Positions 5,352-33,248 of a stretch of 34,308 bases of DNA are shown here, in pieces. The notes under the pieces were generated by a model. The model was not told where the DNA came from. It did no database searches and saw only the letters and a program-made list of their open reading frames with translations. The position numbers were made by a program, and so were the translations under genes. Origin of the DNA: an uncultured Planctomycetaceae bacterium (GTDB lineage: Bacteria; Planctomycetota; Planctomycetia; Planctomycetales; Planctomycetaceae); NCBI GenBank assembly GCA_903858815.1, contig CAIOKE010000048.1:1-34308 (forward strand), written 5' to 3'. Each line of letters starts with the position of its first letter. Positions within the stretch are counted from its first letter, which is position 1.

Positions 5352-6113
5352 ACTCTCCCTGTTCTGAGAGTCCTGATGGAACTGAGTCCATCACGCGGGC
5401 TGAAACAAGAGCTGGGAACAGATTCTTAACGGTGCGATAACCCTGCCACGGAAACTGCCAACGTGTACCAGACAGATTGCCACATTGTCTCAGACTGTCG
5501 CCAGACTTTGAAAACCGCTGCCACACTGTCGTTGCACTTCGCAGCCGGCAGCCACAGCCGAAGTTCGGGGTGTTCAGCCGACTGCAGGACTCAGGCTGCA
5601 GGTCATCATGTTCGCCGCCGCAACTCCGGCAGGCAGCAGGACCATGTTTCGTTCGCGCTGTCGACTGGCAGAACCACAGCATTTCGAACCCTGATCAGGA
5701 TCCTGACAGGCGAACACCGAAATTCAATATATCTGAACCCAAAACCGGTGAAGGTTCACAGCGAGATTCCCCATTGATTGCAGGCCGACAGATCAGCATC
5801 AGGCCGTGGTTCAAATATCAGCACATGGCCCATTCTGATCCCTGCGCTGGGAAGGACACAACGAGTCAACACACACTCGGAAAACTGTGGAGAACACAGA
5901 GCTGGTGCAAACAGAATCCGAAGCCTCCTGCTCCCAGTCTCCCAGCCGGTCTCTGTGAGTCGCAGCCCCACGAGTCGTGAAAATCGTTTGGGCCCCTGAC
6001 TCTCACAGACGCAACTTGACAGGGACAGGTCGCTGACCCAGAATCGAGGGCTATCGCCGAGGCATTCCATACTCTTCGCGTCCGCACGTTTTACGCAATC
6101 AGTGTCTCACCTC
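5352..6113. other. Divergent intergenic region, no recognised gene
   Basis: About 760 bases separate the minus-strand cysteine-rich/DUF6288 genes from the plus-strand HTTM gene. Frames of up to 167 codons exist on both strands, but their products are Ser/Arg/Pro/Gln-rich with no motif, signal peptide or start context. The region should contain divergent promoters; none can be assigned with confidence. Confidence 0.5.
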
Positions 6114-7529
6114 ATGCTCAAAGCACTCAAGAACCTACTCCGGCAGCTCTTCGGTATTGATGTGCGCTGTCTGGCAGTCTTGAGAATTGCCATAGCAGCT
6201 CTGCTGCTGACGGATCTGGGCTTTCGCTGGCCCTTCCTCGTCGAATGCTGCACCGATGATGGTTTCCTGCCGCGAGAACTTGTGCTTGAACCGGATTCGT
6301 GGATGTCACTGCAGATGCTGGATGGTTCGGCTGCATTTCAGGCTGCTCATTTCATCGCGGCCGGCTTCTGCTCGCTGATGCTGCTGATTGGTTTTAAGAC
6401 GCGGCCAGCACTGGTGTGCTGCTGGCTGCTGACAATTTCTCTGCATGCACGAAACGGGTTCCTGCTGGATGCCGGAGATGACCTGCTGCGATCACTGATG
6501 TTCTGGAGTTTGTTCCTACCCATGGGCGCGCGATATTCCATTGACGCACGCGGCAGAGATTCAAAGAAACAGGAAATCGTCGTGTCCCCGGCCAGCGCTG
6601 CACTACTGCTGCAGTTCGCCTGCCTCTACTTCTTTGCGGGCTGGTTCAAGACCGATCAGGGCTGGTCAGACGGTACCGCCATTGAGATGGCACTTGGGCA
6701 GACCCAGTGGATTCGCCCGGCCGGACATTTTCTGAGGCAGTATCCGGAGTTACTGCGATACCTTACCCATGCGGTCGTTTGGTTTGAAATTCTGGCACCA
6801 CTCCTGCTGTTCGTTCCGTTCAGAACCAGGAAGATACGAATGCTGGTTATTCCCGCCTTCTGGTTGTTTCAGGTCAGCCTTGCCTCAACCTTTTGGCTGC
6901 ATCTTTTCCCACTGATTACAGCCGCTGCGACCATTCCTTTTCTGTCATCGATACTTTGGCCATTTCCCACTCTGGCATCGCAGCAGTCGACAGAAAAACT
7001 CCAAACATCAGCACTGCGGACTCACCCATGGCAGATTCTTTGGTGCTCAGGGCTGGCTGCTCTGGCCTCTGCAGTCATTGCTGTCCAGGTTGCATATTTC
7101 GGACAAAGCCTGCTGCCGACAGTGGAACGAGTGGCCTCGCTGATCGGGTGGAACGCGGTGTGGTCTATGTATTCAAAGACCCCGCAGTTTTCGTATCGTT
7201 TTTCAGCCGAGGCGACTTTGCAGGATGGAGAAACGGTCGATCTGATCCATTCAGACGTAGCGGGCGGTGATCGACTGAGAGTGCAGAGATTCCATCAGTC
7301 GTATCGCGCTCGATATTTTCTGGAAACGACCAGCAGCGCAAGGCCACAGTTTCCCACACGGTACCTCACGTATCTTGTCTATCTCTGGAATCAGGATCAT
7401 TCCCCCGACCGGCATGTGGTCCGAGGCCGCATCGTGGGCACAGCCCAGCGAATCCGATCAGACGAACCTGCTGAAACAACCGTTCTGCTGGACGTGGGAT
7501 TCAGCGCTCTGCCCCCGGATCATGGTTGA
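6114..7529 (+). CDS. HTTM domain membrane protein (vitamin K-dependent gamma-carboxylase-like)
   Basis: A 471-residue integral membrane protein with the HTTM fold, the four-helix membrane domain shared with vitamin K-dependent gamma-carboxylase. Typical segments are FGIDVRCLAVLRIAIAALLL (first helix), LLIGFKTRPALVCCWLLTIS (second), LLRSLMFWSLFLPMGARYSI (third) and LLLQFACLYFFAGWFKTDQG (fourth). Further helices follow near FEILAPLLLFVPF and WQILWCSGLAALASAVIAVQ, then a soluble C-terminal part of about 120 residues. The start was taken as the ATG at 6114 because family members begin close to this first helix; an in-frame GTG at 6102 would add four residues. Function in bacteria is largely unknown, and carboxylase activity should not be assumed. 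It is followed by a 265-base gap and then the DUF1592 operon, so it is probably transcribed separately. Confidence 0.85.
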   Translation: MLKALKNLLRQLFGIDVRCLAVLRIAIAALLLTDLGFRWPFLVECCTDDGFLPRELVLEPDSWMSLQMLDGSAAFQAAHFIAAGFCSLMLLIGFKTRPALVCCWLLTISLHARNGFLLDAGDDLLRSLMFWSLFLPMGARYSIDARGRDSKKQEIVVSPASAALLLQFACLYFFAGWFKTDQGWSDGTAIEMALGQTQWIRPAGHFLRQYPELLRYLTHAVVWFEILAPLLLFVPFRTRKIRMLVIPAFWLFQVSLASTFWLHLFPLITAAATIPFLSSILWPFPTLASQQSTEKLQTSALRTHPWQILWCSGLAALASAVIAVQVAYFGQSLLPTVERVASLIGWNAVWSMYSKTPQFSYRFSAEATLQDGETVDLIHSDVAGGDRLRVQRFHQSYRARYFLETTSSARPQFPTRYLTYLVYLWNQDHSPDRHVVRGRIVGTAQRIRSDEPAETTVLLDVGFSALPPDHG

Positions 7530-7794: not shown

Positions 7795-9717
7795 ATGCGG
7801 TTTCCCCTGAATCGTGCTGTTTCCTTCGTTCTTCGGGCTATCCCTTGCTGTCTGTTGCTGCTGCCGGCATCGCAGGCCAGCGCTGATGAGATCTCAGCGG
7901 ACGAAGCGAAGCTTCAGGCCGAGGCCCGCGGGGTTTTCAAGCAGCAGGTAACACCGTTCATACGGAAATACTGCACCGGGTGTCACGGCAGCCGTCCAGA
8001 GGCGGGCATTAATCTGGATTCTGCACTGCAGGACCCTTCCGCCACGTCTTCGTTTCTGCATTTTCAGAAAGCTGCATCCAGCGTGAAGGTGCACGACATG
8101 CCACCCGAGCATGCGGACAAGCAGCCTTCGGACGAGGAGCGTCAGCAATTCCTTGAGGCGATCCGCTGCCTCAAATACATGGCTCCTCGCGATCCAGGCC
8201 CATTCGTCATCCGACGTCTCAGCAGGATCGAATACGGCAGGACTCTCCGTGTTCTGTACGGCGTTGATGAATCGATCACTGCCGGTCTTCCTGATGAAGT
8301 TCCGGGGGAGGGCTATCTGAATTCGATCTCGCCGATGCAGTCTGAACTGTACCTGGAAATAGCCAATCGCGTTGTCAATCAGGTGCTTCCTCCGGAATGC
8401 CGCAAGCAGACTCGACGGCCACATCCAGTTCTTGGCCGAGTACCCGGGCGTCGGGATGATCCCAGAGCCATGGCGCGGGGTGTCGCCAGAAATCTTGCGC
8501 GGGGTGCCTACCGGCGACCGGCGACAGATGCTGAGATTGATGTGCTGGTGGGTATTTTTGATCTGGGTCGGCAGAATGGGCTGAGCTACACAGAGTCTTT
8601 GATCCTGATGTGGAAAGGTATTCTGGTCTCACCTCAGTTTCTTTTCATTACCCCGGCGACGCCGCTTGCATCGACCGGCACGATTGCTCCGCTGGATGAC
8701 TACCAATTGGCATCGCGGTTGTCCTATCTGCTCTGGTCTGAGCCGCCGGATGCCGTCTTGTCCGGATTGGCGGACCGTGGACAGTTGCAGCAGCCTGAGG
8801 TATTCAGGGCGCAGGTGCAGCGTTTGTTGTCTGATACCCGGTTGAGCGCCCTGTTTGACGGTTTTGGTGCACAGTGGCTGGGATTGAGCGGGTTGAAGGA
8901 CCAGGTATTTGATCCACAGGTGTATCCTCAGATGACTCCCACACTTCGTCAAGCAATGCTTGATGAAGCAAGACTGTTTTTCCTCAGTGTGGTGCAGGAG
9001 AATCAGACGGTTTTTCAATTCGTTGACAGTGACTACACCTTCGTCAATCAGTCTTTGGCCGAAATCTATGGCCTGTCGCAGCCTGTCTCTGGTTCAGCGA
9101 TGCGTCGTGTAAAACTGCAGGACCCCAACCGAGGCGGGGTGCTGGGCATGCCAGCAGTACTGGCCAGCACTTCGTTTTCCACTCGCACAAGCCCGGTGCG
9201 TCGTGGTGTCTGGGTACTGGAACAGATTCTTGGAGAGCGAGTTCCGCCTCCGCCTCCTGATGTGCCCCAGCTGCAGGCTCAGGATCAAACCAGCCGAAAA
9301 GATCTGACGCTGCGTGAGTTGACGCAATTGCATCAGTCTCAGGCGTCATGCACAAACTGCCACAAAGTGCTTGATCCAATTGGGTTTGGTCTTGAGAACT
9401 TTGACGGCATTGGACGCTGGCGTCAGACGGACGCGTCGGGAGTGCTCATTGATTCAGCCGGGGTCCTGCCAACCGGCCAGTCCTTTTCGACTCCGGCCCA
9501 GCTCAAGCAAGTGTTGTCCAGTCGTCGTGACGATATTGCTCGCAACGTGATTGAGCGATTGACTGCTTATGCCGTCGGCCGTCCCCTTGAAGGCTATGAC
9601 GAATTAGTGATTGATCGTCTGATGGAAAAGATCGGCAAAGATGGTTACCGAATGCGGACGATGATCACGGAGATCGTGTGCAGTGACTTATTCACTTATC
9701 GGCGGGTTCAGCAGTAG
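7795..9717 (+). CDS. DUF1592/DUF1588/DUF1585 planctomycete cytochrome c-like protein
   Basis: An exported 640-residue protein with a Sec signal peptide ending near SQASADE. Order of parts: a cytochrome c motif CTGCH at residues 60-64 (haem attachment expected); a DUF1587 segment at about 135-200 ([17 protein letters not shown]); DUF1595 at about 225-290 ([20 protein letters not shown]); DUF1592 from 300 ([20 protein letters not shown]); DUF1588 from 445 ([20 protein letters not shown]); a second CxxCH at 519-523 ([20 protein letters not shown]); and C-terminal DUF1585. The spacer between DUF1587 and DUF1595 is short compared with the roughly 800-residue family members I recall. Starts GTG 7792 and ATG 7795 are adjacent and ATG was chosen. 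It is followed after 12 bases by the DUF1552 gene, its usual partner. The pair is presumed to act in the periplasm; the reaction is unknown. Confidence 0.92.
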
Positions 9718-9720
9718 GAG
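9716..9720 (+). promoter_or_regulatory. Shine-Dalgarno AGGAG of the DUF1552 gene, overlapping the upstream stop
   Basis: AGGAG overlaps the TAG stop of the DUF1592 gene and sits nine bases before the ATG at 9730, or six before a GTG at 9727. The overlap implies translation of the second gene from the same messenger as the first. Confidence 0.65.
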
Positions 9721-9729
9721 ATTTCTGTG

Positions 9730-11103
9730 ATGGGTCAAAGTGCACTGATTGCTCGTCGCTCGGTTTTGCGTGGAGCTGGTGTTGCATTGGGGCTGCCATG
9801 GCTTTCGTCATCTGCGTCTGCAGCCAGTGCGTTGCCCTCCAGACCTCCTGTACGGCTGGGATTCATGTATATGCCTCACGGGGTGATCATGGACCAGTTC
9901 TGGCCAAAGTCGGCCAGCGAGTTTCTGACTTCGCCACCACCTGCTCTGCAGTCATTGCAGCCGATTCTTGATCAATGTCTGATGATCAAGGGCATATCCG
10001 GGGTGCCGATTTCTCCATTTAATGGGGCCCCACACGCGCTGGAGCTATCAACATGGCTGACGGCAACGCTGCCCGATGCAGACACTCGTGGTCGCGTCAA
10101 TATTGCGATCTCGGCTGATCAGATCATGGCAAACTACGTCGGACCACAGACATTGTTGCCATCATTGGAACTGGCGACGATGCCACAGACCTGGAAGGAG
10201 AACCAGGAAGGGCTGCACGAAGCGTATTATTCCCACTGCAGTTACCGGTCTCCGACGCAGCCTGTTCCTGCAGAAATCGATCCACGGAATGTGCTGAATC
10301 GACTGTTTGGACGCCGTGACAATCCTGGTCAGATGGTTCGAGCGAATCCCCTGGATCGCCAGATGCTTGATCGAGTCCTTGGGGGGGCTCGCGATCTCCG
10401 TCGCACTCTGGGACGCAACGATCAAATGAAACTGGATGAGTATCTTGACAGTGTGCGCGCTGTGGAACGGCGGGTGGCGGCAATCGAATCGCGGCAGCAG
10501 GCGGCTGCACAGGAAAAATCCGGACGGCGCAAAGACAGTTCAACGGCTGCAGCCCCGATTGAAATCCGCATTCCTGAAGGTGACAAACGAAGTGAGTATA
10601 TGCAGGTCATGTGCGACCTGACTGTGCTGGCTTTCCAGACAGACACCACGCGAGTCAGCACGTACATTGGATCAACCCCGAATGGCGTTTCCTATCCGGA
10701 ACTTGGTTTCACGAATCAGCATCATTCCCAGACGCACCATGAAAATCGTGAAGAGATGGTCAGTAAGGTGGCCGCCATCACGAAGTTCAACATCGATCAA
10801 TTTGCCTATATGGTAAAGAAAATGGCAGGACTGCCGGAAGGTGATGGCACGCTGCTGGACAACTGCATCATGCTGTGGGGGTCGGGGTTGGAGGACGGAA
10901 ACCGTCATACACGACAGAATCTTCCCTTTATCATCGCTGGTCGCGGCGGCGGAACACTGAATACAGGACGCTTCCTGTCAGATGTCAGTGGAAATCAGGG
11001 CGACCTGCTGACAACTCTGTTGTCATGTGCGGGAGTTCCCCTGGACCGTCCCATCGGGATTGCCACGAAAGAAATTTCCGAGATGCGCGTTGCGGGGAAA
11101 TAA
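9730..11103 (+). CDS. DUF1552 family protein, Tat-exported
   Basis: A 457-residue protein of the planctomycete DUF1552 family. The N-terminus [20 protein letters not shown] contains a twin-arginine motif followed by a hydrophobic stretch ending in SSASAASA, so it is likely exported folded. Family signatures visible are [18 protein letters not shown] near the mature start, the helical [20 protein letters not shown], and the C-terminal [20 protein letters not shown], which resembles the metal-binding DGN/H end of alkaline-phosphatase-like folds as also seen in DUF1501. The AGGAG before the start and the 12-base gap show co-expression with the DUF1592 protein. Its chemistry is not established; a hydrolase-like fold is inference. 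GTG at 9727 is an alternative start. Confidence 0.9.
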
Positions 11104-11660: not shown

Positions 11661-12551
11661 TCAGCGAGCAACAGCCATGTGATCACCCTGCCGAGCGTAG
11701 ACTTCTCGGTGCTGGCTGGATTGTTCCAGCAGGTCTGCGTCGAACTGCACTCGACCTCGCTCGAAAATGGTGATCGTTGATGACCCACCAAAGCGAAAAT
11801 ATCCTTTTTCATCGCCCTTCGCCGCGGTTTTTCCCGCTGCAAAGGTCTGACAGATCGTGCCAACGCAGGTTGCACCAATCTCCAGCAACAGGACTGTGCC
11901 CAGATGCGGAGTCTGCAGTTCCGTGATGCAACGTTTGTTCTGTGCAAGAATCCGAATGTTCTGCCGAAGTGCGACAGGGTTCACAGAAAACAGCGGTCCC
12001 TGGATCATTCGTGTGCCCTGCGGCGTTCCGTCCACCGGAAAGTGAAACCGATGGTAGTCTACAGGGCAGAGGCGTGACAGCAGCAAACTGCCACCAGCGT
12101 AGCGTTCGGTCAGCGCTGAGTTCTGCAGCAATTCGCCAAGGCTGAAGTTTTGCCCCTTTACAAACAATCCCTGAGAACGAGACAGGTCCGGAATGCACAG
12201 ATGACGCCCGTCCGCAGGAAACACCACAACTTTGGGATCCGGATTCACCGGGCGTGCATCGACCTTCAACTGTCGAAAAAAGAACTCATTGAATGTCTGA
12301 AACTGATCAGGGGCCATTCGAAACTCGCTGACGTCCAGCGCGTACTGCCGAATGAAAGGTGCAATCAGACGCTTCGACGCTGGTTGATCCATTCGCCAGC
12401 CATACCATCTGGAAAACAGCGCTCGCTTAACCAGCACGTGCAGCGAGACTCGGCCAGCGACTGTCCCATAGGCCCAGCGCAACGATCGCTCGCCGTAGAT
12501 CTTCTCAACGAGGTTCCTTTTCTGGTATCGATCGTAGTAAACGACGTCCAT
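11661..12551 (-). CDS. psd: Phosphatidylserine decarboxylase proenzyme
   Basis: It decarboxylates phosphatidylserine to phosphatidylethanolamine, the last step of PE synthesis, using a pyruvoyl group made by self-cleavage. In the 296-residue protein the essential elements are present: FPADGRH with Asp114, CPVDYHRFHFPVDG with His167/His170, and FRFGGSSTI with the Gly-Ser cleavage site (Gly256-Ser257) near the C-terminus, which yields a large beta and a small alpha chain. The length fits the family. The start was placed at 12551 (MDVVYYDRYQKRNLVEKIYG), because this is the usual N-terminal region; the 26 codons open upstream look unrelated. It is the last gene of a minus-strand lipid operon behind a desaturase and a hydroxylase-family gene. 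The GGSS form of the cleavage motif differs from the LGST of E. coli but is found in other branches. Confidence 0.93.
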   Translation of the reverse strand: MDVVYYDRYQKRNLVEKIYGERSLRWAYGTVAGRVSLHVLVKRALFSRWYGWRMDQPASKRLIAPFIRQYALDVSEFRMAPDQFQTFNEFFFRQLKVDARPVNPDPKVVVFPADGRHLCIPDLSRSQGLFVKGQNFSLGELLQNSALTERYAGGSLLLSRLCPVDYHRFHFPVDGTPQGTRMIQGPLFSVNPVALRQNIRILAQNKRCITELQTPHLGTVLLLEIGATCVGTICQTFAAGKTAAKGDEKGYFRFGGSSTITIFERGRVQFDADLLEQSSQHREVYARQGDHMAVAR

Positions 12552-12663
12552 GCTGCTTTCACAGGTCAAATTGAACAGGTTGCAAACAATCTGGCGAACA
12601 GGATTGTGCCCGGGTTTCGCATTGCACACATTTCAGCCTGAAAGACCATCGTTCGTCAATTCG

Positions 12664-13893
12664 TCAGGTTGAGGAACTGGTGGGATTCTGCTTTCGGAAT
12701 GACAACAGCTTCCGGAAAGGATACAGGAACTGGCTCAACCAACCGCTGGGCACATCACGTGATCCACAAAGTCCATACTCTGCCGGCCACCGTCCGGGCA
12801 TATACCACGTCCCGAACAGTCGATCCCAGATCGGAGTGTGCACGCAAAAATTCTTATTGATGGCCTCCGGTTCAGCCGCATGATGCCAGTGATGAAAACA
12901 GGGTGTTGCAATCCAGCGCTGAACCGCGGCAAACTGCCAATGCACGTTCGCATGAATAAATGTTGCCTGGATCACAACAATAACCACGTAAACTGCAATT
13001 GCCGGTTCGGAAAAGCCAAGTACGAACAACGGCAGATAGGTCAGGCTGCGTGTGGCCACGGCATCGACAAGGTGCAGACGTGAACCAGCAAGCCAGTCCA
13101 TTGCTTCTGCAGAGTGATGAACAGCATGGAATTTCCAGAGCAGCGGAATCTGATGAAACGCGCGGTGTACCCAGTACTGAGTCAGATCAGCAACCAGCAG
13201 GCACAGGACGGCCTGCAGGACAATCGGCAGGCTTGAAAGACTGTTGACCACGGCAGGGACGCGTGCCCAATCGAACAGAGTGATTGCAGGCTTCATCGTC
13301 AGCATCCCAAGCACCTGAACCAGGATGGAATTGAGGAAGAAGTACGACAGATCCGTGGTCCACTCTCTGCGGAACGTCGGTTGCCGAGGATGCAGAGCGA
13401 AGAATCGTTCAGTTGGAATGTAAACGGCCGAGTAGAGCATCAGGTTCAGCACAAACCAGTCGAGGCCCAGCCACGTATTCTGGATGTCACCACCGATCGA
13501 CACGGTGGAACCGCCCAGTGCAGCGGCCAGTAAAACAGCACCAATTCCCACAATCCCAAAGACCTTGTTCCGCCGCAGGCAGAGACTGATTGTTCCGAAA
13601 AGAAAAGACAAAACCAGCAGAATGTGAAGCAGTGCGCGAATCAGATCGACCGGATAATGCCCACGCAGCTGCACCACCGTCAAACCAGGAAAGCGAAAGC
13701 AGATGACAGCGCCAAACGCAGCGATACCCAGCACCGCCGAGATGATTCCACTGATCCAACCGCGTCCAAAAACTGTCGGCTCATGCGTCTCCAGGGCGAG
13801 CCGCGGGAAATCATCCGAGCTGGAATCTGCTGACTGTGGCATATCACCAGTCAGTGCAGGATCGGAATCGCTTGAGCTGTGATGCATAGTCAC
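12664..13893 (-). CDS. Fatty acid hydroxylase/sterol desaturase superfamily membrane protein
   Basis: A 409-residue integral membrane di-iron oxygenase candidate of the fatty-acid-hydroxylase superfamily, which includes sterol desaturases, lipid hydroxylases and alkylglycerol monooxygenase. The diagnostic histidine clusters are complete: H243RAFH247, H256AVHH260, H314ANVH318 and H334HWHH338. They lie after some six hydrophobic segments (for example ISAVLGIAAFGAVICF and LIRALLHILLVLSFLF). The first 40 residues are acidic and Ser-rich and probably cytoplasmic. The GTG at 13893 overlaps the stop of the upstream desaturase gene as GTGA, implying translational coupling; an ATG at 13887 is the alternative. 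The substrate cannot be read from sequence, but the position between a CarF-like desaturase and psd argues for a phospholipid or ether lipid. Confidence 0.9.
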   Translation of the reverse strand: MTMHHSSSDSDPALTGDMPQSADSSSDDFPRLALETHEPTVFGRGWISGIISAVLGIAAFGAVICFRFPGLTVVQLRGHYPVDLIRALLHILLVLSFLFGTISLCLRRNKVFGIVGIGAVLLAAALGGSTVSIGGDIQNTWLGLDWFVLNLMLYSAVYIPTERFFALHPRQPTFRREWTTDLSYFFLNSILVQVLGMLTMKPAITLFDWARVPAVVNSLSSLPIVLQAVLCLLVADLTQYWVHRAFHQIPLLWKFHAVHHSAEAMDWLAGSRLHLVDAVATRSLTYLPLFVLGFSEPAIAVYVVIVVIQATFIHANVHWQFAAVQRWIATPCFHHWHHAAEPEAINKNFCVHTPIWDRLFGTWYMPGRWPAEYGLCGSRDVPSGWLSQFLYPFRKLLSFRKQNPTSSST

Positions 13894-14639
13894 GACTGTT
13901 TCCCGCTGATGGACCGACCAAACTGATGCTCATCTGACCTTGCCTGCAGCCCCGTCACATGCGTAATCAGCCGTTCAAACCGCCTGAAGAACTGAATTGC
14001 CTGCAATGGTCGGTTACACCAACCAGTGGTGATGCAGTAGTTGGCGATCCAGGGCGGATTATGATGCCGCTGGTGGGCCGAATGGCTGAGAATTATCCCG
14101 AAATTCTGCAGATAACGAACCAGCAACGGCGCACGCCCCATATGCGCCCATTGATGGATCTGATTTGTCAGCATCCCGATTGAGGAACTTGACGTCAGAA
14201 AGAGTGCTGCCGTGTACGAAAATGGAGTTTTCAGGGGCATGAAGCAGCAAATCAGAAGGAACGGGATCGCCAGAAATGCAACATCGCCATTGGTGTCGAT
14301 GAATCTTCGCTGCAGAAAATCGCCTGGATTGATGTGATGAACTCGAAACGGATGCAGTAGTCGCTTGCCCAGAATGGGCATCGACTCACTGCCCCACGTA
14401 TCTGCAAACCAGTGAATAAGACCTGAAACGAAGTCAGCAAACAGCATTCCAGCGGGAATCGCCGTCAGCAGAGGCAACGAAAACTGATCGGGATGTTCAG
14501 TCAACCGCCAGATGGCCCCGACCGCCACCAGGAAGGCCGTGGCACAGGATGTGGCGTAGAACAATCTGGTCTCAACTGGAATGGGTAAATGCCCCGGCAG
14601 GACGGGAGCAGTACCTTCCTGTTGTCTGCCTGGTTCCAT
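13890..14639 (-). CDS. CarF/TMEM189-family lipid desaturase (plasmanylethanolamine desaturase-like)
   Basis: A 249-residue membrane protein of the lipid-desaturase family containing animal TMEM189/PEDS1, bacterial CarF (both make the vinyl-ether bond of plasmalogens) and plant FAD4. Signatures: FADFVSGLIHWFADTWGS (residues 67-84), HPFRVHHINP (96-105), FIDTNGD (113-119), NQIHQWAH (159-166), LSHSAHQRHH (184-193) and YCITTGWCNRPL (201-212). These supply the histidines for a di-iron site. Hydrophobic segments lie at about 26-45, 55-77, 120-135 and 140-157. At the position where TMEM189 and CarF have RHDF, this protein has QRRF, which recalls FAD4. The start was placed at ATG 14639; a TTG at 14690 would add 17 residues of no evident homology. 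It is the first gene of the operon with the hydroxylase-family gene and psd. Confidence 0.88.
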   Translation of the reverse strand: MEPGRQQEGTAPVLPGHLPIPVETRLFYATSCATAFLVAVGAIWRLTEHPDQFSLPLLTAIPAGMLFADFVSGLIHWFADTWGSESMPILGKRLLHPFRVHHINPGDFLQRRFIDTNGDVAFLAIPFLLICCFMPLKTPFSYTAALFLTSSSSIGMLTNQIHQWAHMGRAPLLVRYLQNFGIILSHSAHQRHHNPPWIANYCITTGWCNRPLQAIQFFRRFERLITHVTGLQARSDEHQFGRSISGKQS

Positions 14640-14919
14640 CGATCCATCCGGTGAAACTGTCGGTGCCCCCAAACCTACGTCGAGTACCAATTGTAGCGAG
14701 TGGGAAGATCATGAGTACATCCCGACTGCAAGTTTCGACGCAACGAACCAAAGTCAGCAGCAGCCACAAAAACCTGAGCAGAATGCGTGATATCCCCGCC
14801 CGCTTCAGTTCTAATAGTCCCATGAGAACCGAAGCATCGGTTGGCTCGTCGTCGTGCGAGCCTGCGGAAGTTGCCAACATCGAAGCTTTTATCACAACCC
14901 AGCGTTTTGAGAATCCCGC

Positions 14920-17582: not shown

Positions 17583-18986
17583 CTAGGTACTTCTGCCGCC
17601 CAACAGACGGTAGCGAACTCGCTGGCGGATCGCTGCAGCCTGCTCATGGCTGAACAACACGGAGTGGTGAGTGGAGGAAACTTCCAGAGTGTTTCCACAT
17701 GTGGTCAGTCCCAGCATCATAGACGTCATAATCCCGGTGCCGGTGTAGCGGGAGTATCGCTGGAGCTGCCCGGAGGACAGTTCATCGCACAGAAAAGTGT
17801 TGAGATTCACATTGGAGACAAGTGCCGAAACGGGCACAAGTCCAGGACCGGCAATTCGATTCCCCCAGCGTGGCAGGCAGTCCCAGATATTTGACATGAA
17901 TTCCAGGTGCCGTTCGTAGAAACGGTAGACCCCCGAACGTTTGATCTGCTGAGTTTCGGCGGCCATCTGCCGCACAAAATCGGCAAACGACTGACCTCGC
18001 CGCCGACGTGGTCTCAGAGTATAGCCCCCCAGAATCTGACCGGATGCTTCGGGAACCGGAGGTATCGTTTCATGCCGCAGGTCAACAGGCGTGTACAGCC
18101 CGATGCGACGTCTCCAACCGGACCCGCAGACAGTCTCTTCGATAGCCTCGTGAGTGGCGGAAAGCAATAAATCGTGGACAGTGACACCGAAATCGCGAGC
18201 CGTCAGTCGGACGTCGCTCAGTGGCAGTAATTCGCTGTCAGTGTCTGGAACCAGCACATCTGGCTTCGCAAAGCATCGCGGAGCGCGCCACGAAATACAG
18301 CCACAGCAAATCTCCCGCAAAACTCGTGGGAGCGTCTTCCCCATTGAGCCATCACGATCGAAGTTGGGGATCAGTGTGGAGAGCTCTCGTGCGAATCCCG
18401 GCGGTGCTGCGTCAGTTGGCACCGCTCCTCGCAGATGCCGCAGAATGCATCTCGCCAGCGCTGTGGTCGCTCGAGAGTCCTGAATCACGTGACGATAAAT
18501 GATCAGCAGATACCAGCGATTCGCCCCTGTGGTAACGATATGGAACCGAAATGGACTGGAAGATTCCTCCGGAAACCTGCGATTCAATTCGGTCTGCAGC
18601 AAAGCATTTGTGAACTGTTCGGGCGGTTGCTGATCAGAGGTGTGAAAATCCAGTTGAATATACGACTGCGGTGACTGTTCGCTCAGACATCGGAAACTGC
18701 AACCGTCCCCGGAGAATTCAACCGGCCCTGGCAGAAACCACTGCACCGCAGAGTGTATCGCACTTCGAACCGAGGCAACGTCCGGCTGACCAGCAAGGGT
18801 GAGCAGATGCGCCGCGTTCAACGGATGGAAAGATTCCCATCGCAGCATCATTTTCTGCAGGCCGTTTAACGGTCTCCAGTGCCCACAGTCCGGGATCGCA
18901 ACCAACTCATCGCTCCGAATCGTCACTGCACTCTCATCCACCGTTTGGGCATCGAGCCTCGAATGCAGAAACTCATTCGATTTCAT
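17583..18986 (-). CDS. Stand-alone condensation-domain/acyltransferase-fold protein
   Basis: A 467-residue soluble protein resembling the chloramphenicol-acetyltransferase/condensation superfamily (non-ribosomal peptide condensation domains, PapA-type and wax-ester acyltransferases). Visible elements: PLNGLQKMMLRWESFHP at the start, YLLIIYRHVIQDSRATTALA at 159-178 containing the HxxxD motif His166-Asp170, YTPVDLRHETIPP in the second half, and LVPVSALVSNVNLNTF near the structural latch. The canonical form is HHxxxDG; here the first His is Arg and the final Gly is Ser. No carrier-protein or adenylation gene is nearby, so it may transfer an acyl chain to a small lipid or alcohol rather than form peptides. 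ATG 18986 is the natural start. No signal peptide is present, so it is cytoplasmic. Confidence 0.72.
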   Translation of the reverse strand: MKSNEFLHSRLDAQTVDESAVTIRSDELVAIPDCGHWRPLNGLQKMMLRWESFHPLNAAHLLTLAGQPDVASVRSAIHSAVQWFLPGPVEFSGDGCSFRCLSEQSPQSYIQLDFHTSDQQPPEQFTNALLQTELNRRFPEESSSPFRFHIVTTGANRWYLLIIYRHVIQDSRATTALARCILRHLRGAVPTDAAPPGFARELSTLIPNFDRDGSMGKTLPRVLREICCGCISWRAPRCFAKPDVLVPDTDSELLPLSDVRLTARDFGVTVHDLLLSATHEAIEETVCGSGWRRRIGLYTPVDLRHETIPPVPEASGQILGGYTLRPRRRRGQSFADFVRQMAAETQQIKRSGVYRFYERHLEFMSNIWDCLPRWGNRIAGPGLVPVSALVSNVNLNTFLCDELSSGQLQRYSRYTGTGIMTSMMLGLTTCGNTLEVSSTHHSVLFSHEQAAAIRQRVRYRLLGGRST

Positions 18987-32645: not shown

Positions 32646-33248
32646 ATGTCTTTTTGGCCGCCCGATAACCGTGGTGGGTCAGCAGAACGCTGGCTCACCA
32701 CGGTGCTGGCCGTTATGGTCTGTAATACGGTTTACCTGACATGGCGTTTTGCTGCGCTGTACGCCGGTTGGGCGACTCCGGGAACCGGGTTGTGTTCGTG
32801 GTCTGCTGGGATTGATTGCGATCGAGTGCTGCAGACTCCTGAGGCTCGTGCGTTTATCGTTCCAAACGCGGTCCTTGGGCTGGGTTTCTATTCCACAGCC
32901 CTGCTCTGGTGGATCGCAGGACGCAGGTTGACTGCCACAAACAACCCTGTTGTGACCCGCGTTCTGGTGGTTGGATTGTCAACCGCATCGCTGGCAAGTC
33001 TCTGGTTCTGGCGTTTGCTGCTGCAACTGGAAGCCCTGTGTCCCGTTTGTCCGTGGAATCACGTTCTGACCTATGTCGCGCTAGGTTTTGCTGTACGACT
33101 GCTGATGAAGCAAAAGCGAGGAATGAGCAATGAGAATTCTGGACTGCTGGGAAAACTTGCCGCAGTCTGTGTGCTGTGGTTCCTGCTGTGCCTCGCAGGA
33201 TGGTTTGTCTTCGAATTCTTTGTCGAAAAAGCCACTTCTGCCCAGTGA
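32646..33248 (+). CDS. Vitamin K epoxide reductase (VKOR) family membrane protein
   Basis: A 200-residue membrane protein that in bacteria oxidises thiols (disulfide-bond formation, DsbB-like) using a quinone. All four key cysteines are present: the loop pair Cys50 and Cys58 (GLCSWSAGIDCDRVLQT) and the active CxxC Cys132-Cys135 (LCPVCPWNH). Helices lie at about 17-38, 72-91, 103-123, 136-153 and 170-193. VPNAVLGLGFYSTALLWW is the usual second-helix region with the G/Y motif. No thioredoxin domain is fused, so a separate periplasmic thiol carrier would be needed. The ATG directly follows the TGA of the preceding fusion gene with no gap, so the two are almost certainly co-transcribed and may be coupled. 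The stop is followed by a long non-coding repeat region. Confidence 0.9.
   Translation: MSFWPPDNRGGSAERWLTTVLAVMVCNTVYLTWRFAALYAGWATPGTGLCSWSAGIDCDRVLQTPEARAFIVPNAVLGLGFYSTALLWWIAGRRLTATNNPVVTRVLVVGLSTASLASLWFWRLLLQLEALCPVCPWNHVLTYVALGFAVRLLMKQKRGMSNENSGLLGKLAAVCVLWFLLCLAGWFVFEFFVEKATSAQ

Follow-up and report, generated by a model that had tools for sequence, protein, structure and literature searches.

Three adjacent genes on the minus strand of the window (the whole stretch of 34,308 nucleotides analysed here) raise the question of whether they form a single lipid pathway and, if so, whether this pathway makes plasmalogens, as proposed in a first-pass annotation. The first gene, DES, encodes a lipid desaturase of the Pfam family PF10520 (Lipid_desat; 7e-55, 186.2 bits for a cut-off of 26.4) and occupies positions 13890..14639, corresponding to 249 aa from the ATG at 14639; its longest ORF (13890-14690, minus strand) begins with a TTG at 14690 and has 266 aa, and the residue numbers given below refer to this ORF. 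The second, HYD (12664..13893, minus strand, 409 aa), encodes a membrane protein of the fatty-acid-hydroxylase/sterol-desaturase superfamily (FA_hydroxylase PF04116; 1.1e-30, 107.2 bits, cut-off 31); it starts with a GTG, and the ORF listing gives a further ATG two codons inside. The stop of DES and the start of HYD overlap on the minus strand by the four bases GTGA (13890..13893), common to both ORFs. The third, psd, encodes a phosphatidylserine decarboxylase (PS_Dcarbxylase PF02666; 2.1e-49, 168.3 bits, cut-off 22) and extends on the same strand over 11661..12551 from an ATG located 112 bases after the HYD stop, or over 11661-12629 from a GTG. The annotated identities and coordinates of the three genes, the overlap and the gap were all confirmed by the ORF listing and Pfam; the planctomycete host was likewise supported by the nearest relatives, and the oxygen-dependent di-iron lipid chemistry by family membership. 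A scan for promoters and terminators gave no signal above chance.

If the three genes made plasmalogens, DES would be a genuine plasmanylethanolamine desaturase whose ninth position has drifted, HYD would be an ether-lipid monooxygenase or would make the alkyl precursor, and psd would provide phosphatidylethanolamine. Several features of DES agree with this scenario: it shares 37% identity with Myxococcus xanthus CarF over the best segment and retains eight histidines (H93, H118, H119, H179, H183, H206, H209, and H210). It also retains D97 and F115, which were invariant across 31 aligned sequences and whose equivalence to mouse D100 and F118 rests on their spacing to the histidines numbered in PMC8960569; according to the same paper, D100 is essential in mouse PEDS1 and F118A leaves 6%. 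The ninth histidine (H113 in CarF, H131 in mouse PEDS1) aligns in DES with an arginine, R128 (codon at 14307..14309, minus strand), in a column anchored by H113 of the M. xanthus ORF (L054). This histidine is essential in CarF (PMC9131029), and most of the activity of mouse PEDS1 depends on it (PMC8960569), so the assignment of DES to the plasmalogen-forming CarF/TMEM189 desaturases is not supported. The ninth histidine was absent from all 20 distinct HYD-paired desaturases examined, namely 19/19 in the main alignment (15 R, 4 C) and then G171 (1 Q), and it was kept in 57 of the 60 unpaired ones. PMC9131029 also indicates that arginine is the usual residue at this position in plants and that CarF homologues of plants and Alphaproteobacteria, which are devoid of the ninth histidine, failed to complement carF. 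Arginine or cysteine at this position does not strictly exclude vinyl-ether formation, since mouse H131A keeps 7.4 +/- 3.5% activity (PMC8960569).

The only NCBIfam model matched by DES was CarF (NF045946), with 186.8 bits for a cut-off of 500, compared to 570.9 bits for M. xanthus CarF used as a control. This cut-off appears narrow, since two planctomycete proteins of the H-type, which keep the ninth histidine, also scored below it (241.1 and 234.9 bits). In the tree, the paired DES and those located at contig ends formed one clade apart from CarF (support 96/90), and the same clade plus two Gemmataceae sisters had a support of 98/100. Judged from this phylogeny, DES belongs to a PF10520 clade separate from the plasmalogen-forming CarF. 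The search for AGPS or ElbD orthologues in seven DES-positive planctomycete genomes found none, which is a weak argument because most CarF-type planctomycetes tested are also devoid of AGPS. Indeed, among 17 H-type planctomycetes searched as a control at E 1e-30, AGPS was clear in one (G238), weak in four (124-129 bits) and not found in 12, such that 16 of the 17 had no strong match; at the same threshold there was nothing in 10 genomes without the ninth histidine, and FAR/acyltransferase (E 1e-20) was found in G238 only. We thus dropped ether-lipid genes as a discriminator.

At one locus (L024, genome G018), the strand that encodes DES also carries, 1.6 kb upstream of it, a BadF-type ATPase and an ORF containing the final 41 residues of DUF2229. 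We take these to be domains of the anaerobic plasmalogen enzyme, and they could favour vinyl ethers at that one locus. No ORF at the 19 other loci compared matched the ATPase; DUF2229 was found in one of eight genomes, again G018 (44 residues), where it shares a contig with the DES-HYD pair, and was not found in the genome of the window organism. Considering the loss of the ninth histidine, the model scores and the lack of linkage of psd (see below), we regard plasmalogen synthesis as an unlikely function of these genes.

The neighbourhood of DES was more informative. HYD adjoined DES in all 18 named members of the clade with an intact DES and enough flank; by title or NCBI rank, these loci were planctomycete (13), acidobacterial (L039, L045, and L053) or gemmatimonad (L041 and L047, with the reversed order HYD-DES), the records being mostly metagenome bins in which binning errors could blur phylum labels. 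The longest ORFs overlapped or were at most five bases apart in all 18 pairs. Further clade loci were either cut by contig ends (L035, L038) or broken, with a partial HYD (L097). In the order-level sample, which overlaps with the previous one because six of the 18 named loci were taken as the same contigs as same-order genomes, HYD was beside DES in 11 of the 14 PF10520-positive genomes (seven intact pairs and four with broken or partial genes); two of the remaining genomes were cut by a contig end and one encoded a divergent desaturase without HYD. The nine strongest HYD relatives among 170 genomes (at least 499.8 bits) were all beside DES. No HYD was found in the flank covered around any of 57 named H-type desaturases, nor around any of 17 from the phylum sample; the flanks reached 1.2 kb or more on each side for 48 of the former and 15 of the latter. 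On this comparative evidence, the adjacency of DES and HYD exceeds chance, since it recurs at 18 named loci from three phyla. The pairing is not obligatory, since HYD is missing within ~6 kb of one R-type desaturase (G243) and from the flanks of the two Gemmataceae sisters, which have Thr at the ninth position. We found no relatives of DES in viral contigs and plasmids, and no report of this gene pair in those parts of the literature that were accessible.

The situation was different for psd, which the first-pass annotation had placed in the same operon. We found no second copy of it in the genome of the window organism, and in the eight other DES-positive genomes searched it was always on a different contig from DES. 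A profile built from 11 psd sequences (leave-one-out recovery 11/11) matched nothing in the flank covered at the 18 named loci, nor in any of the 93 loci. The first-pass annotation would be refuted, by its own criterion, if related genomes did not keep the three genes together; this applies to psd, which was a neighbour in no relative examined, whereas the desaturase-hydroxylase link was supported. We thus rejected psd as a cassette partner; it looks like a chance neighbour. The sole recurrent candidate for a conserved third gene was a YegS/diacylglycerol-kinase-type lipid kinase present near the pair at 8 of 20 loci (Pfam confirmed all eight), with varying side and orientation; none was found among the 20 window ORFs compared, and we did not retain it as a cassette member, although we count its recurrence in favour of the two-gene reading given below. 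Several other recurrent neighbour clusters corresponded to antisense shadows of DES and HYD.

The distribution of HYD is broader than that of the pair. Within the order, 12 genomes with no PF10520 match encode HYD relatives, indicating that HYD has a role of its own. No partner was common to all 12 of these DES-less loci: a planctomycete-cytochrome gene (PSCyt1/PSCyt2/PSD1) occurred in four, all of one genus, and one gene cluster in five, its one checked member being DUF1501; we judged both to be background. These HYD relatives, together with the few DES relatives without HYD nearby, would fit a scenario in which each enzyme has a lipid substrate of its own and the genes stay together for shared regulation alone, for instance in response to oxygen or cold. 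The overlapping or near-touching ORFs of all 18 named pairs and the occurrence of the pair across three phyla and with either gene order argue against it, and we consider it improbable. A closer association, with DES and HYD as subunits of one complex in which HYD would serve DES as a scaffold or as its redox partner, would be consistent with the overlap of the reading frames and with the correlation of DES and HYD identities over 19 pairs (r = 0.70, as high in 0 of 2000 permutations, a correlation inflated by shared descent). However, the histidines of the HYD motifs (HX3H, HX2HH, and HX2HH) are invariant in all 27 aligned homologues, and HYD also occurs alone; we regard this arrangement as very improbable.

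With the predicted structure of DES (pLDDT 88.9), Foldseek returned nothing at E 0.001 or better, the best match being the Scs7p hydroxylase domain (E 0.074). Using VIA-align, this model gave a Z of 8.2 with Scs7p (rmsd 4.6, 195 aligned), a Z near 8 denoting a possibly common arrangement, and 5.2 with SCD1 (rmsd 4.6, 170 aligned). The HYD model (pLDDT 79.4) had no useful structural match, and sequence searches found no PDB relatives of DES at E 1 or of HYD at E 0.1.

The pair probably carries out a membrane-lipid modification other than plasmalogen synthesis. The reading that we favour, with somewhat better than even confidence, is that of a two-gene lipid-oxidation cassette in which a FAD4-like DES and HYD would act on the same membrane lipid, at near-headgroup carbons of one chain, with psd as an accidental neighbour supplying phosphatidylethanolamine to the whole cell. 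DES and HYD would be co-transcribed and translationally coupled integral-membrane di-iron oxygenases. DES would probably add a double bond to an acyl chain near the glycerol or headgroup, in the manner of plant FAD4, rather than form a vinyl ether, and HYD would hydroxylate a nearby carbon. HYD probably acts first or independently, since its relatives are also found without DES, which would then perform an optional second step.

A more specific version of this two-gene cassette, which we put forward only tentatively and hold to be rather doubtful, is a so far undescribed two-step modification encoded by a mobile cassette in three phyla: HYD would oxidise the chain at the carbon adjoining its polar end and the FAD4-like DES would introduce a double bond beside it, one example of a product being a 2-hydroxy-3-trans-enoyl membrane lipid. 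In that case, losing the ninth histidine would signal a substrate switch from alkyl-ether to acyl chains. The nearest precedent that we know of is the 2-hydroxy, delta-3-trans acyl chain of fungal ceramides, which is due to a different desaturase family. Should the pair make a new oxidised lipid, this compound might serve as a biomarker of the planctomycetes and of the other phyla with the pair. A bacterial PF10520 protein like DES matches only a plasmalogen-desaturase model of NCBIfam, which invites that name, and the ninth histidine should be checked before the name is transferred. The DES-HYD pair also offers a concrete gene pair for tracing PF10520 functions outside plants and animals.

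Among known systems, alkylglycerol monooxygenase (AGMO), which we take to be a member of the PF04116 superfamily, would share this superfamily with HYD. The ornithine-lipid hydroxylase OlsE (NF052566), the sole NCBIfam match of HYD, shares with it the PF04116 domain with histidine boxes, but HYD scored far under the cut-off (116.4 bits for 475) and has ~120 more residues than the model ahead of the matched part. DES resembles CarF/TMEM189/PEDS1 in Pfam family, size, eight catalytic histidines, D100/F118 equivalents and, by family, membrane di-iron chemistry; it differs from them by the missing ninth histidine, its separate clade and the adjoining PF04116 hydroxylase. Plant FAD4, the delta-3-trans desaturase of phosphatidylglycerol, is also a PF10520 protein, for which we know of no hydroxylase partner. 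Compared by description only, DES and FAD4 have in common the Pfam family, the eight histidines and the arginine usual in plants (PMC9131029). DES thus displays the combination that we used to recognise a FAD4-like protein, a PF10520 domain with eight histidines and without the ninth one specific to PEDS1.

Open reading frames and Pfam matches placed the three genes where the first-pass annotation, which read them as an ether- or vinyl-ether-lipid operon, had positioned them: a PF10520 lipid desaturase (DES) at 13890-14639, from an ATG, a PF04116 fatty-acid-hydroxylase-superfamily membrane protein (HYD) at 12664-13893, and the phosphatidylserine decarboxylase gene psd (PF02666) at 11661-12551, also from an ATG. 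GTGA is common to the DES stop and HYD start, and 112 bases separate the HYD end from the psd start. A 467-residue protein at 17583-18986 (-) scored exactly at the Pfam Condensation cut-off, with a sub-cut-off PapA_C match, and may be an acyltransferase close to the lipid genes. An HTTM-domain protein of putative vitamin K carboxylase type (6102-7529) is encoded 25 kb from one of the VKOR family (32646-33248).

The membership of psd in this operon was not borne out, since it is not a neighbour of DES-HYD in the relatives examined. Beyond this genome, 13 in the order are known to carry the desaturase; in the eight of them that were searched, psd and DES lay on different contigs, and the DES contig extended at least 4 kb past HYD every time. 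A profile built from 11 psd, each recovered when left out (11/11), found none in 93 loci, including 18 named DES-HYD loci, with flanks up to 5 kb. The window psd is the only PF02666 copy in its own genome and is therefore the general phosphatidylethanolamine enzyme there. The psd of G000 and G120 (L179, L178) match PF02666 positions 1-188, those of most relatives 4-197 or 5-197, and phmmer with the window psd recovers only 4 of the 11 compared; a different psd type may have been acquired.

The DES-HYD pair recurred. Just 14 of the 170 genomes examined from the order had a PF10520 match, and HYD adjoined the matching gene in 11. The pair is intact in seven of these (own genome, G120, G125, G128, G006, G018, G130) and has broken or partial frames in four (G118, G102, G121, G119). 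Contig ends truncated the DES locus in G057 and G059, and G026 carries a divergent desaturase without HYD alongside. DES is broken or partial at L027, L028/L097, L029 and L030 (G118, G121, G102, G119), which could be genuine decay or an artefact of sequencing or binning; HYD is intact in G118 and G102 and partial too in G121 and G119. The best 80 of 142 DES relatives from named genomes included 18 intact pairs. Record titles and NCBI ranks assign 13 of these to planctomycetes, three to acidobacteria (L039, L045, L053) and two to gemmatimonads (L041, L047). Six of the planctomycete loci (L031, L033, L034, L037, L042 and L043) match contigs of G120, G125, G128, G018, G130 and G006 in length and coordinates and are taken as those contigs, already counted above. 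In every one of the 18, the longest ORFs of the two genes either overlap or are separated by no more than 5 bases. The order is HYD-DES in the two gemmatimonads and DES-HYD in the remaining 16, and adjacency retained in both orders favours a functional link over frozen order. Our search of largely open-access literature found no description of this pairing, which may be reported elsewhere.

Some HYD relative occurred in 112 of the 170 genomes, mostly distant superfamily members; the nine strongest (at least 499.8 bits) all adjoin DES. A further 12 relatives (280-427 bits) come from genomes lacking a PF10520 match, with neither DES nor a common partner found in the stretches examined, and HYD therefore has a role independent of DES. 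DES of this type is nearly always accompanied by HYD. The exceptions are G243, which has Arg at the ninth histidine position and no HYD closer than about 6 kb, and two Gemmataceae sisters carrying Thr there, whose flanks hold no HYD.

That position corresponds to CarF H113 and mouse PEDS1 H131. Mouse H131A retains 7.4 +/- 3.5% activity, F118A 6% and D100A none (PMC8960569), PMC7149458 agrees on the histidines, and plant and alphaproteobacterial homologues do not complement carF (PMC9131029). The alignment, in which the window DES entered as a 266-residue ORF begun at a TTG upstream of the ATG, placed the column at residue 113 of the M. xanthus ORF (L054), a His, which confirms it. The window DES has Arg. 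His was absent from all 19 paired desaturases (window plus 18 named; 15 R, 4 C) and both contig-end members (R), and present in 57 of 60 unpaired ones, the others being the Gemmataceae (T) and L026 (S). HYD was absent from the examined flanks of all 57 (for 48, these reach 1.2 kb or more each way). A phylum sample (matches in 35 of 392 genomes; 30 loci examined) gave 17 H-type loci, some possibly of species already in the named set, with HYD at none (15 of them with flanks of 1.2 kb or longer in both directions); one new pair, with Gln (G171); nine loci with K, N or G and no HYD; and as R rows G243, without HYD, and the already counted window and G006. Planctomycetes thus hold both types, with pairing seen only in the one without the histidine.

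In a midpoint-rooted tree of 50 DES rows, some on long branches, paired and contig-end DES formed one clade (support 96/90), joined by the Gemmataceae sisters (98/100) and separate from CarF-like rows. Acidobacterial rows were dispersed among planctomycete rows in the HYD tree, as cassette transfer would give; the unpaired HYD L111 (G077, 3.4 kb contig) fell near paired ones. DES and HYD pairwise identities correlated over 19 pairs (r = 0.70, a value reached in none of 2000 permutations), with shared ancestry contributing.

Eight of 20 loci (L022, L025, L027, L032, L036, L044, L046, L048) carry a YegS/diacylglycerol-kinase-type lipid kinase, Pfam-confirmed in every case, close to the pair; its side and orientation vary. 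The window ORFs compared included none. A BadF-type ATPase (8719-9882) and an ORF ending in a DUF2229 tail (7905-8774) lie 1.6 kb upstream of the pair in G018 (L024), on the same strand; such domains occur in the anaerobic plasmalogen enzyme. They count against a non-plasmalogen reading, and we do not weigh them heavily: only part of the domain is matched, in one of eight genomes searched.

Ether-lipid genes were sought with M. xanthus (G170) AGPS, the adjoining FAR/acyltransferase and ElbD, identified by domain content and the operon layout described in PMC9131029; G170 itself was recovered. In seven DES-positive planctomycetes, AGPS gave only low-identity matches (about 22-31%) to other FAD-oxidase proteins (top scores 105 bits with blastp and 84 when searching the genomes), and ElbD matches, among those listed, covered about a third or less. 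Of 17 H-type planctomycetes, only G238 gave clear matches to both AGPS and the FAR/acyltransferase; four more gave weak AGPS matches. Since most H-type planctomycetes also lack clear AGPS, gene absence cannot decide; they either make ether lipids by another route or make none. G238 (L222, L227, L229, L205), with two AGPS copies at 44-46% identity to M. xanthus, a clear FAR/acyltransferase homologue and a CarF-family desaturase aligning His at the ninth position, is a good candidate for a planctomycete making real plasmalogens.

By family and histidine pattern, DES and HYD are predicted membrane di-iron enzymes. The HYD structure model gave no useful match, and the DES model bore no more than a loose resemblance to the Scs7p hydroxylase and SCD1. 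By analogy with the plant desaturase FAD4 and with PF04116 lipid hydroxylases, we infer a shared substrate, an order of steps and a position of oxidation, such that DES and HYD would oxidise one lipid sequentially near its polar end.
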